64,000 bases of DNA from Rhodococcus sp. KBS0724 (GTDB lineage: Bacteria; Actinomycetota; Actinomycetes; Mycobacteriales; Mycobacteriaceae), in contig NZ_VCBX02000001.1 in NCBI RefSeq assembly GCF_005938745.2, positions 124,001 through 188,000 of the forward strand. The letters run 5' to 3'. Made by a program: the position numbers and the translations under genes. Under the pieces are notes generated by a model. It worked only from the letters and a program-made list of their open reading frames with translations. It was not told the origin of the DNA and ran no database searches. Of this stretch, positions 56,429 through 61,027 are shown piece after piece (position 1 is the first letter of the stretch; each line of letters starts with the position of its first letter).

Positions 56429-57259
56429 TTGGGAACGCCTGAACGATCTCTGCACACTGCCAGTTCGCTCCATGCGTTCAACCGGTATGAAATCAAGTAT
56501 CTAGCTCACGAACGTGACGTTCCGGCATTGCGCGAGGAACTGAACGCGCACATGGACTCCGATGTGAATTCGCCGATCGGTGGATACCCGGTAACCAGCC
56601 TGTACTACGACACACAGAGCCTGCGCTTCTACTGGGAAAAGATCGAGGGTCTGAAGTTTCGCCGCAAACTCAGAATCCGCCTGTACGGGCGCCCGTCCGA
56701 TGCTGTTGACGAGACACCCGTGTACGTCGAGATCAAACAACGGGTCAATCGTGTGACGCAGAAGCGGCGCATCCAGGTTCCGTACGGCGTTGCGAGGCAA
56801 CTGTGTGACACACGCAGCGACATCGACGTCGACACATCGGCGCAGCCATTTGTCAACGAAGTGTCCACACTGGTCGGCAATCTCGACCTTCGGCCGTCGG
56901 TCACCACCGGCTATCTGCGCGAGGCGTTTGTCGGTGTCGACGCCGATCTCGGCTTGCGGGTGACTATCGACCACAAGATCCACGGCCGAGACCGCGACTT
57001 CCACTTCGCGTCCGAGTCCGAGAACCGGTTCATCATCCCGCCGCACCTGTGCATCGTGGAGATCAAAGCCAATGAACGTGTGCCCTATTGGGTTACGGAC
57101 ATGGCGGCGCGTCGGGACATGTCCGTCGTGCGAATCTCCAAGTACTGCCAGAGCATCGAGGCCTTCGGAATGGCACCACGTTCCCGCCTGCACGCCCGTG
57201 AAGAAATGCTCACGCCCTCGAACGCTTTCGAGAGCTCCCTCGTGAAAACAGGACAGTAA
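56429..57259 (+). CDS. VTC-domain protein (polyphosphate polymerase-like)
   Basis: 276 residues from TTG 56429, ribosome site AAAGG. The VTC tunnel fold is recognised by paired basic/acidic strands: FNRYEIKYLAHERDVPAL, YYDTQSLRFYWEKIEGLKFRRKLRIRLYG, PVYVEIKQRVNRVTQKRRIQV and LCIVEIKANERVPYWVTDMAARRDM, plus the end segment VRISKYCQSIEAF. In yeast Vtc4 this fold polymerises ATP to polyphosphate. It stops exactly where the DUF4956 ATG begins, and CotH follows. This trio recurs in bacteria. Whether it makes polyphosphate is unknown. Confidence 0.88.
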   Translation: MGTPERSLHTASSLHAFNRYEIKYLAHERDVPALREELNAHMDSDVNSPIGGYPVTSLYYDTQSLRFYWEKIEGLKFRRKLRIRLYGRPSDAVDETPVYVEIKQRVNRVTQKRRIQVPYGVARQLCDTRSDIDVDTSAQPFVNEVSTLVGNLDLRPSVTTGYLREAFVGVDADLGLRVTIDHKIHGRDRDFHFASESENRFIIPPHLCIVEIKANERVPYWVTDMAARRDMSVVRISKYCQSIEAFGMAPRSRLHAREEMLTPSNAFESSLVKTGQ

Positions 57260-57937
57260 ATGAATTTCGATCTACAAGATCTCAGCGGCACTTTTTCGAC
57301 CTTCGACATCATTGTCTCGCTTGCACTTTCGTTCGTGCTGTCCGCGATCATCGGCTACGTGTACCGATTGACGCACAAGAACGTTTCGTACAGTCAGTCG
57401 TACGTGCAGACCCTCGTGATGGTGGGCATGATCATCAGCCTCATCATGCTGGTTGTCGGCTCCAACGTCGCACGCGCATTTGCGCTCGTCGGCGCACTCT
57501 CCGTCGTACGATTCCGCAACGCCATCAAGGAAACGCGCGACGTAGGCTTCATCTTCCTCGTCATGGCAATCGGAATGACAACGGGTACAAGATTTTACCT
57601 CCTGGCAATTGCTGCGACAGTCGCGATCTGCCTCGTCTTGGTACTGATGAGCAAATTCAACATGTTCAAGCTCGACGTGCAGCGTCAGGTTGTGAAGGTG
57701 CAAGTTCCCCCGGAGCCCGGCTACACCGCGCTGGTCGAAGACATCCTGATCGATTTCACCAAGGAATTCGAACTCGTTTCCACCGAATCGGTACGTTCAG
57801 GCGCTCTGACCGAGCTGTACTACACCGCGCAGCTGAAGCCGGGTAAGAAACCCGCAGAACTGATCTCGGCACTCAGTGGTGTCAACTCCGGCCAGCGAGT
57901 CACAGTCCTGACCGGTTACGACCAGACTGATATCTGA
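57260..57937 (+). CDS. DUF4956 membrane protein
   Basis: 225 residues starting directly after the VTC stop. Three to four N-terminal membrane helices (about 12-34, 46-66, 100-130) around the conserved GALSVVRFRNAIKETRDVGFIFLVMAIGMTTGTRFY motif, then a cytoplasmic C-terminal domain of about 90 residues. The family is almost always found beside VTC-domain and CotH genes. Probably a membrane partner for the VTC enzyme, comparable in role to the membrane part of yeast VTC (inference). Its stop overlaps the CotH start by one base (TGATG). Confidence 0.88.
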   Translation: MNFDLQDLSGTFSTFDIIVSLALSFVLSAIIGYVYRLTHKNVSYSQSYVQTLVMVGMIISLIMLVVGSNVARAFALVGALSVVRFRNAIKETRDVGFIFLVMAIGMTTGTRFYLLAIAATVAICLVLVLMSKFNMFKLDVQRQVVKVQVPPEPGYTALVEDILIDFTKEFELVSTESVRSGALTELYYTAQLKPGKKPAELISALSGVNSGQRVTVLTGYDQTDI

Positions 57938-59625: not shown

Positions 59626-59671
59626 GGCCACTCTCAGTATTTCTACAAGATCGCCCTCTATCGTCTCGGCC

Positions 59672-61027
59672 ATGAGCACCGCGAACAGCACCGAGAACAC
59701 TCACCGCCAGCCGTCGCTACTTGGTCGACGGCTGGCGGTGGGCGGTTTGGCAGCTGTTGTGGTGGGCGCGGTGGGCGGTACGGGCTGGGTGTGGTTCTCG
59801 GGCGGCGAGAACAGTTCGCGGACAGTGGCGATAGTCAACACCGACGCTGGGACCGTGCTGGACGGCGAGGAACTGCGCGCCGGTGACACGCTGGTCGAGA
59901 CGCTGAGTGCGAGCGAGGATTTTGACTTCTCCGTTGTCGACAGTCCCAGCGGCAACTACTTTGCGACGCTCACCGTGCCCGAAAATTTCAGTGAGTCGGT
60001 TGCCTCGATGCTCGGCCCGGATCCGCAGCAGGCGAGCATCGACCTCGATGTTCAGGGCACTGACGGAGCGCAGGCGGTCGCGCTGACGCGCGCCGTATCG
60101 GCGCAGGTCAGCGCCGACGGTATCAAGGGTTTGATGTCGCAGACGTCAGCTGCTCGCCGGGCATTCGATCAGAATCTCGTGACCGCGCAGATGTTGGTGG
60201 CGGGAACAGCGGGCGCCGAGAAGTCGATCGACCAGGTGAAGGCCGGGGCAGACACGATCCTGCCGTATCTGGAGACGGCCCGTGCGGGTTCGTTGGAGCT
60301 GACGAGCGTTGCTGAGCAGGTGTCCGGCGTCGTGAATCAGGCAGCTGGGTCGGCGGAGGAGTTGGCTACGCGCGCAGACTCGCTCGGTCTGACGTTGGGG
60401 GAGGCGTCGTCGTCCACCGCAGATCTCAAGGTGCGTATCGACTCGTTGACAGGTGCGTTGAACAGATTGCCGGTGCCGCAGGAGATTACGGCGCAGTTGG
60501 CTGGTGTGAGCACCGACTTGGGAGCGGTGACAGCACAATTGAACGCTGTCCCGTCGATGCTGGGTGGGTCGGTAGGACCCGATACGGCACTCGGTGATCT
60601 GGTGCGAACTGCCGTCGGTCAATTGCAGGGCGCAAGTGCTCAATTGAACAGCGCTGCCGGTCAATTGAGTGACGGCTTGATTCCGATCGCGGATCAGGCT
60701 CCGCAGATGCTGGACGACGTGACCGCTCAGATCACCCAGGGGTTCGGGACTCTCAAGTCGGTTGCGACGTCGTTGGTGACCGGGTTGGACACTGCAAAAT
60801 CCGGGTTGCCGGCGATGACCACTCCGCAGCAGGTTCAGCTGATGTCGGTGCTGTCCGATCCGGTGGCGGTGAATCAAACCAGTGGGGCCGCAGGTGGATC
60901 GGATTCGCGCACAATTGCTTTGGTGTTCGGTACGGCAACAGCCCTTCTTGCGGGGGCATTGCTGATGCAAACGGCGGCGCCCCTGGTGCAGGAGCGCCGC
61001 CGCGTGAAGCAGGAAGTACGTGACTAG
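59672..61027 (+). CDS. YhgE/Pip-like membrane protein
   Basis: 451 residues. An N-terminal membrane helix (about 22-45) is followed by SSRTVAIVNTDAGTVLDGEELRAGDTLVETLSASEDFDFSVVDS, the opening of the YhgE/Pip extracellular domain. A long helical region with repeated Ala/Gln/Leu heptads (about 140-400; QLQGASAQLNSAAGQLSDGL) spans outside, and one C-terminal helix (about 413-433) ends in a basic tail. The usual C-terminal set of five helices is missing, so it is a short form. It follows cotH in the same direction after 46 bp. Function unknown; relatives include the lactococcal phage-infection protein Pip. Confidence 0.75.
   Translation: MSTANSTENTHRQPSLLGRRLAVGGLAAVVVGAVGGTGWVWFSGGENSSRTVAIVNTDAGTVLDGEELRAGDTLVETLSASEDFDFSVVDSPSGNYFATLTVPENFSESVASMLGPDPQQASIDLDVQGTDGAQAVALTRAVSAQVSADGIKGLMSQTSAARRAFDQNLVTAQMLVAGTAGAEKSIDQVKAGADTILPYLETARAGSLELTSVAEQVSGVVNQAAGSAEELATRADSLGLTLGEASSSTADLKVRIDSLTGALNRLPVPQEITAQLAGVSTDLGAVTAQLNAVPSMLGGSVGPDTALGDLVRTAVGQLQGASAQLNSAAGQLSDGLIPIADQAPQMLDDVTAQITQGFGTLKSVATSLVTGLDTAKSGLPAMTTPQQVQLMSVLSDPVAVNQTSGAAGGSDSRTIALVFGTATALLAGALLMQTAAPLVQERRRVKQEVRD

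Follow-up and report, generated by a model that had tools for sequence, protein, structure and literature searches.

In yeast, the VTC complex couples polyphosphate synthesis to passage across the membrane via its own helices (PMC9911596), and in bacteria cotH, a polyphosphate polymerase gene (PPP) and a DUF4956 gene have been described as a contiguous accessory set of Gram-positive pel operons, adjoining pel in the genomes of streptococci, clostridia and bifidobacteria (PMC7112168). VTC and CotH proteins are also listed in a locus of Clostridium perfringens (PMC2879425). In Streptococcus intermedius, the trio SIR_1592-1594 was deleted as pel accessory genes by authors who link it to phosphate metabolism and to MgtC/ACT domains, and who report, with a scope not given in the passages cited, having failed to find this arrangement outside the Pel locus (PMC12345266). 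In the literature searched, we found no description of how bacterial or archaeal VTC proteins meet the membrane. Here we describe the same three families, contiguous and without pel genes alongside, in Rhodococcus sp. KBS0724, within a stretch of 64,000 nucleotides (contig NZ_VCBX02000001.1, positions 124,001 to 188,000; hereafter the window). The VTC and DUF4956 genes form a strict pair across genomes, CotH is their frequent companion, and the module is real, widespread and little studied.

A preliminary description of this DNA had presented the VTC, DUF4956 and CotH genes as fused into one coupled unit with a YhgE/Pip-like gene. Its layout, with contiguous VTC and DUF4956 genes, a one-base overlap and a 46-bp gap, matches the coordinates that we find, the genes being four separate ones and not fused. 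The trio and the two low-complexity inserts of its third protein, which had likewise been noticed and are indeed present, are as follows:

56429-57259, plus strand: VTC-domain protein gene, 276 amino acids, TTG start, ending in TAA
57260-57937, plus strand: DUF4956 membrane protein gene, 225 amino acids, ATG start
57937-59625, plus strand: CotH kinase-fold protein gene, 562 amino acids, ATG start
58366-58500, plus strand: CotH low-complexity insert 1, residues 144-188, of ELPDGM/GGM type
59152-59376, plus strand: CotH low-complexity insert 2, residues 406-480, rich in Gly, Ala and Met

A GAAAGG stretch resembling a ribosome site lies about 8 nt 5' of the TTG start of VTC. The DUF4956 ATG (57260) abuts the TAA of VTC and shares its frame, the CotH ATG (57937) overlaps the DUF4956 stop by one base, and the gap of 46 bp separates the CotH stop (59625) from the YhgE/Pip-like open reading frame (ORF) at 59672.

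The evidence that carries our interpretation is first of all genomic. VTC occurs in 16 of 149 Actinomycetota genomes and in 20 of 149 Bacillota genomes, and DUF4956 occurs in the same 16 and the same 20, with equal numbers of copies (17/17 and 25/25). In 41 of the 42 resulting pairs the two genes share a contig and are separated by 2 kb at most, or by 353 bp at most in 40 pairs; in the remaining pair they fall on two contigs, each gene near a contig end. VTC and DUF4956 are thus a strict one-to-one pair. Both are also present in three of 14 named control genomes, i.e., Bacteroides ihuae, Corynebacterium glutamicum and Methanosarcina acetivorans; C. glutamicum holds all three families, B. ihuae has Cthe_2159 and no CotH, and the Bacillus subtilis control has CotH and neither VTC nor DUF4956. 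CotH is a frequent, not a strict, partner. All 13 CotH-bearing genomes of Actinomycetota and 17 of the 20 of Bacillota also have VTC, and CotH lies within 5 kb of VTC for 14 of 17 matches in the former and 16 of 29 genes in the latter (29 of 34 rows were used, the other five being second pieces of the same gene). This survey bears out the earlier claim that the three belong together, their linkage being far beyond chance, and does not extend it to the YhgE/Pip-like gene.

Scanning genome contigs with a DUF4956 alignment gave at least 590 loci, the best 80 of which, i.e., the most window-like and not a random sample, were all counted; their record titles point to some fifteen bacterial phyla and a single archaeon. 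Of these 80 loci, 74 have VTC, the gap not exceeding 300 bp in 66, and 53 have CotH within 1 kb. In eight loci the third slot is taken by Cthe_2159 (PF14262), seven of them having no CotH in the stretch, and 20 loci have neither family within 1 kb. Mobilisporobacter (L172, genome G176) has Cthe_2159 in this position and no CotH match genome-wide. The third slot is exchangeable, with CotH the usual occupant and Cthe_2159 elsewhere. Among the eight third-slot proteins looked up by domain scan, the gene after VTC in the Fibrobacter loci L137 and L144, which had BLAST-clustered with CotH, was rejected as such and codes for a lamin-tail-domain protein. HlyD genes lie near VTC/DUF4956 in 10 of the 80 loci and outer-membrane efflux genes in nine, in groups that are diderm by title, as export across two membranes would need.

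Two further observations were made on these loci. HlyD and/or TolC-like outer-membrane efflux genes are near VTC-DUF4956 in L133, L136-L138, L141-L145, L152 and L160. Four Poribacteria loci (L150, L157, L158, L164) have DUF4956 and CotH, no recognisable VTC and a transporter permease alongside, and three of the four have an ECF sigma factor gene followed by a zinc-finger-type gene.

The VTC protein of the window matches Pfam PF09359 at E 2e-46 (158.9 bits; curated cut-off 23). Pfam matched the VTC domain alone, with no SPX domain, and hydropathy found no hydrophobic segment; the protein is predicted to be cytosolic and, judged by its domain content, is not of the eukaryotic complex type, because it has neither an SPX domain nor membrane helices of its own. 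Searched alone against the PDB, its sequence gave chance matches to S100 proteins and no more than weak ones to Vtc4. A profile of 26 VTC relatives was informative and matches yeast Vtc4 at E 2e-23 over profile positions 7-240. Residues K23, R82, R84, E101, K103 and K112 of the window protein correspond to Vtc4 K200, R264, R266, E279, K281 and K294, and R164, R177, D181, E211, K213, S237 and K238 correspond to R361, R373, D377, E426, K428, S457 and K458. Counterparts of the tunnel residues K200, R264, R266, K281, K294, R361, R373, E426, S457 and K458 are invariant in the 26 sequences. Besides R264, R266 and E426, the Vtc4 tunnel residues compared are ones that we take to be functional. R264, R266 and E426 are catalytic, the R264A/R266A/E426N protein being an inactivated form (PMC9911596). 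We infer that the VTC protein is a polyphosphate polymerase.

Its partner matches Pfam DUF4956 at E 1.9e-24, above the curated cut-off. The predicted structure (mean predicted local distance difference test score 79.8) has five helices, at residues 14-38, 46-66, 70-90, 92-109 and 113-132, followed by a C-terminal ferredoxin/ACT-like domain. The C-terminal domain of MgtC (2lqj) is the second Foldseek match of this model (E 2e-3), the matches of the VIA comparison are tied ferredoxin-like folds, and by sequence the DUF4956 profile found no relative among solved structures (best 0.068). Pfam MgtC scores 7.9e-6 on the protein (26.7 bits, below the cut-off of 31.4); relatives are named YhiD in several databases, and PF02308 is frequently assigned to them by the scan of the database itself. 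Judged by charge, the loops that follow helices 1, 3 and 5 would be cytosolic and the N-terminus seems to face outward, a membrane layout whose two sources are hydropathy and the model. Residues G78, R84, F85 and R86 are invariant in 73 sequences. Because basic residues line the upper channel of the yeast VTC complex (PMC9911596), the invariant arginine pair at the putative cytosolic end of a helix would be compatible with a conduit.

Actinomycetota also contain a second, distant DUF4956 subfamily (L068-L072 and L084, in genomes G036, G058, G078, G135 and G140). Its Pfam matches, at E 1e-48 to 7e-58, are far above the score of the window protein; it is VTC-paired as well, and the four members compared have 17-21% identity to the window DUF4956.

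The third protein matches Pfam PF08757 at E 2.3e-30 (106.6 bits; cut-off 23.8), and its profile matches Bacillus CotH (5jd9/5jda) at E 2.2e-30 in two stretches. Two active-site aspartates are kept, D364, invariant in 14 sequences and aligned with the NFD aspartate of 5jd9, and a second one, whose B. subtilis equivalent we take to be D251. Because of the 23-residue spacing between the two, D364 is probably the counterpart of B. subtilis D228. The latter is the catalytic aspartate of B. subtilis CotH, and the D228Q form is inactive (PMC7821199). A single hydrophobic segment, residues 28-52, lies behind a basic N-terminus, and the protein is predicted to be anchored by this N-terminal helix and to lie outside the cytoplasm; such a placement appears well founded for the window CotH and less so for all CotH. 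In a crude scan of the 80 loci, 37 of 55 CotH ORFs have a hydrophobic segment before or at the start of the domain. Both kinds of insert motif occur in 16 of 21 CotH from the actinobacterial set, which includes one Chloroflexi locus besides 20 actinobacterial ones, in two of 34 other CotH and in nine of 522 other ORFs; that the inserts are shared with Cthe_2159 was considered and dropped, with the combined motif in none of eight. Insert 1 has two Thr and no Ser or Tyr, and insert 2 has two Ser, six Thr and no Tyr, so that these residues make up 10 of 120 (8%), vs about 21% in the remainder of CotH. The inserts are hence unlikely autophosphorylation regions, as had been suggested for them.

Our preferred reading, to which we give a probability of roughly 45%, is a three-gene module made of a cytosolic polyphosphate polymerase, a dedicated membrane partner and an extracellular CotH effector. 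In the cytosol, VTC would use ATP to make polyphosphate or a phosphate chain much like it. DUF4956, by its model a possibly MgtC-like protein with five helices and an ACT-type domain on the cytosolic side, would be its dedicated membrane partner; it would stand in for the membrane part of the yeast complex and pass or gate the chain across the membrane near the invariant Arg-Phe-Arg, where helix 3 meets the cytosol. CotH, held by its single-helix anchor, would have its target, a surface protein or polymer, outside the cell and act on it as a kinase-like effector. The YhgE/Pip-like gene would have no part in this mechanism. The earlier idea of a membrane complex that phosphorylates surface proteins or builds a phosphate-rich surface layer survives in so far as a cytosolic enzyme, a membrane protein and an outward kinase fold are compatible with it, and loses its YhgE/Pip member.

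Several points weigh against this reading. Enzymes with the TTM fold include phosphatases and cyclases (PMC8233210). The own genome has ppk1, as do 27 of 28 Rhodococcus genomes, so that polyphosphate can form without VTC. The passages cited on S. intermedius tell of no change for the VTC mutant (SIR_1593), unlike the DUF4956 mutant (PMC12345266), and a tight VTC-DUF4956 machine predicts like phenotypes. For the S. intermedius DUF4956 protein, four membrane segments were predicted (PMC12345266), vs the five helices modelled here, and neither of the two DUF4956 models gave a Foldseek match at E <= 0.001. No VTC was found in six of the 80 loci (L150, L157, L158, L164, L169 and L177); the first four have DUF4956 and CotH, and L169 and L177, the latter a 5-kb contig, neither of these two. 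Three of the 16 VTC genomes of Actinomycetota and three of the 20 of Bacillota are without CotH. In 18 of 55 CotH ORFs, the crude scan detected no hydrophobic segment ahead of the domain or at it; several of these 18 have an uncertain start or a domain that lies far from the N-terminus. Finally, the nominal chance of equal VTC and DUF4956 genome sets, below 1e-20, ignores the relatedness of the genomes.

Another possibility, to which we lend some credit, is that the module tunes exopolysaccharide and aggregation as in pel operons, DUF4956 and CotH acting on amount or attachment with VTC as an auxiliary. The same trio does stand beside pel in streptococci, clostridia and bifidobacteria (PMC7112168), and in S. 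intermedius the DUF4956 mutant has more Pel and the cotH mutant less, and the aggregation of both falls by more than half in one medium (PMC12345266); a section heading of the same paper states, however, that Pel production does not require SIR_1591-1594. The genes that come after the trio in L165, L166 and L173 belong to clusters represented by MBOAT, AlgX/DHHW and PilZ-glycosyltransferase proteins, which look like an acetylated-polysaccharide synthase set, and Cthe_2159, the third-slot family of eight of the 80 loci, is carbohydrate-binding by its Pfam description. Against this, the recurrent neighbour clusters in the 21 loci of the actinobacterial set are histidine kinases, response regulators, SDR and ABC proteins and a few others, unscanned, and the one-to-one coupling is that of VTC with DUF4956. 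Moreover, Pfam found no pel genes adjoining the window trio. No pel family is among the matches listed for the window (25 of 41 families, 37 other ORFs), the rest of the genome not having been searched for pel, and none was seen in 62 of the 104 size-fitting neighbours of the 80 loci. Since no pel family is found in the window or in these 62 neighbours, the trio occurs without Pel alongside.

It is unlikely, in our view, that VTC is a different triphosphate-tunnel enzyme, such as a polyphosphatase, a triphosphatase or a signal-nucleotide enzyme, and that DUF4956 regulates phosphate uptake or ATP synthase in the manner of MgtC, the two together sensing the phosphate state with CotH as the output. 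TTM/CYTH enzymes do have several activities (PMC8233210), the C-terminal domain of DUF4956 may be MgtC-like, with a weak Pfam MgtC score (7.9e-6, below the cut-off), and within 8 kb histidine kinases are found in 20 of the 80 loci and response regulators in 15 (BLAST clusters). Yet the profile matches Vtc4 in particular (2e-23) with E426 and S457-K458 kept, and there is a parallel to the yeast complex in the strict link to a membrane protein.

A bolder proposal, which we regard as improbable, is that VTC and DUF4956 form a polyphosphate synthase-exporter and that CotH, as a kinase in surroundings devoid of ATP, takes the exported chain as its phosphoryl donor (or as the price). If true, it would mean ATP-independent phosphorylation of surface proteins or polysaccharides, and Cthe_2159 as well as the HlyD and outer-membrane channels of diderms would be lineage-specific replacements or extensions for handling the exported chain. 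The trio also bears on the phosphate source for extracellular CotH, and the ATP source for spore CotH has been called unanswered (PMC7821199).

The features flanking the trio are as follows:

56357-56376, plus strand: direct repeat of 11 bp in tandem, CAGCTTTACTC CAGAATTAC, 72 bp 5' of the VTC start
59626-59671, plus strand: leader (46 nt) of the YhgE/Pip-like gene, marking the right-hand limit of the trio and belonging to the neighbour
59672-61027, plus strand: gene for a YhgE/Pip N-terminal-like protein, 451 amino acids, two membrane regions, resident neighbour

The fourth protein matches NCBIfam pip_yhgE_Nterm (TIGR03061) at E 7.7e-19 (67.9 bits, below the cut-off of 96.15). It has two membrane regions only and no ABC-2 domain by Pfam, and three weak, longer relatives have ABC-2-type domains. 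That it is a working part of a four-gene complex is hardly credible, even if the 46-bp spacing in the window, and the fact that the trio adjoins YhgE in five of the nine trio-bearing genomes (G000, G003, G008, G009 and G011) in a sample of 28 Rhodococcus genomes, invite the thought. In these nine, VTC and CotH occur in the same genomes and DUF4956 adjoins VTC in all. A YhgE match is present in 25 of the 28 genomes, in 20 of which the trio is not alongside; G013 and G023 have the trio elsewhere and YhgE directly behind an AI-2E-type gene, and in G018 and G020, which also have the trio, nothing matches YhgE. A conserved linkage of the fourth gene, the test that the earlier description had itself set, does not hold up: YhgE adjoins the trio in five of nine trio genomes, all in one clade. 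A tree of VTC and DUF4956 places the five YhgE-linked copies and that of R. hoagii apart from all others (support 100); the contig of R. hoagii stops directly behind CotH, with the same GDT1 neighbour present. Since the YhgE-linked copies lie in one clade, the arrangement seems to go back to a single event. In 22 further loci (R. hoagii and 21 outside the clade), some of whose flanks are cut by contig ends, nothing matched YhgE at E <= 1e-5.

The 46 nt between CotH and YhgE point the same way. They agree at 35-38 of 46 positions with the YhgE leaders of eight genomes without the trio at this site, vs 30-33 for the best of 200 shuffles each. Because they are kept there, above the shuffles, they are best read as YhgE's own leader. 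In more distant species, including G008, G009 and G011, which carry the trio at YhgE, the leader is unaligned (8-30 of 46, within the shuffle range), the start codons being uncertain. With its own leader, a single clade, YhgE without an adjoining trio and the trio without YhgE, the gene is ruled out as a fourth member and is a resident neighbour. Within the leader (59626-59671), the strongly kept blocks are TCTCAGTRTTTCTACAAG and a TAYCGTCTCG-like one; such blocks look like a promoter or operator of the gene's own.

On the other side of the trio, DUF308 and AI-2E-transporter-family ORFs lie at 54571-56323 with overlapping ends, and the same pair is directly 5' of YhgE in the nearest Rhodococcus genomes without the trio there. 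For the direct repeat 5' of VTC, a pattern was drawn up from six loci belonging to one Rhodococcus clade, and all 20 of its positions hold in these six. In 25 other loci the best agreement is 13-16 of 20, and the scores of 16 (L051, L105, L106 and L113) were equalled by 2-7 of 100 shuffles. The own genome has 12 sites at three mismatches or fewer, vs three for the reversed control, and one exact site. The repeat resembles the 11-bp repeat sites of OmpR/PhoB-type regulators, and it may be a candidate binding site of a two-component regulator. Phosphate-regulon control via this repeat was considered and is not claimed, given one exact genome site and confinement to one clade. Elsewhere in the window, 47 of 51 picked ORFs were scanned with Pfam, and the matches include GGDEF, EAL and a siderophore-type uptake set (FecCD, Peripla_BP_2, SIP).

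Regarding what is already in print, the trio is known in outline as pel accessory genes. Within the literature searched, four points are new: VTC and DUF4956 as a strict pair, a third slot with exchangeable occupants, the occurrence of the trio in Rhodococcus and other phyla with no Pel beside it, and the removal of YhgE from the unit. The earlier statement that no such pathway is described for Rhodococcus is right to the extent that no Rhodococcus paper turned up, in searches none of which named Rhodococcus, and has to be amended by the published pel accessory trio. As strict partner, DUF4956 is a direct candidate for coupling bacterial VTC to the membrane.

The module can finally be set beside the known systems that its parts recall. 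With the pel accessory module it shares the same three families, contiguous in the window, but here they are not contiguous with pelDEADAFG, and this trio without adjacent pel qualifies the printed statement that the arrangement is absent outside the Pel locus. The YhgE/Pip and EsaA proteins share their N-terminal domain with the fourth protein, which differs from them by its two membrane regions and the missing ABC-2 match. Compared with Bacillus CotH (5jd9/5jda), of a Fam20C-related kinase fold, the window CotH has the profile match (2.2e-30) and the two active-site aspartates, and adds an N-terminal membrane anchor and two Gly/Met inserts. DUF4956 recalls MgtC/SapB (YhiD) by its helical membrane part and perhaps by its modelled C-terminal ACT-like domain (2lqj), and departs from it by a Pfam MgtC score below the cut-off and by its strict link to VTC. 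With the yeast VTC complex, the likeness lies in the catalytic TTM domain with the compared tunnel residues and in the link to a membrane protein; the window VTC, however, has neither SPX domain nor membrane helices, and DUF4956, a protein of its own and from a different family, supplies the membrane part.

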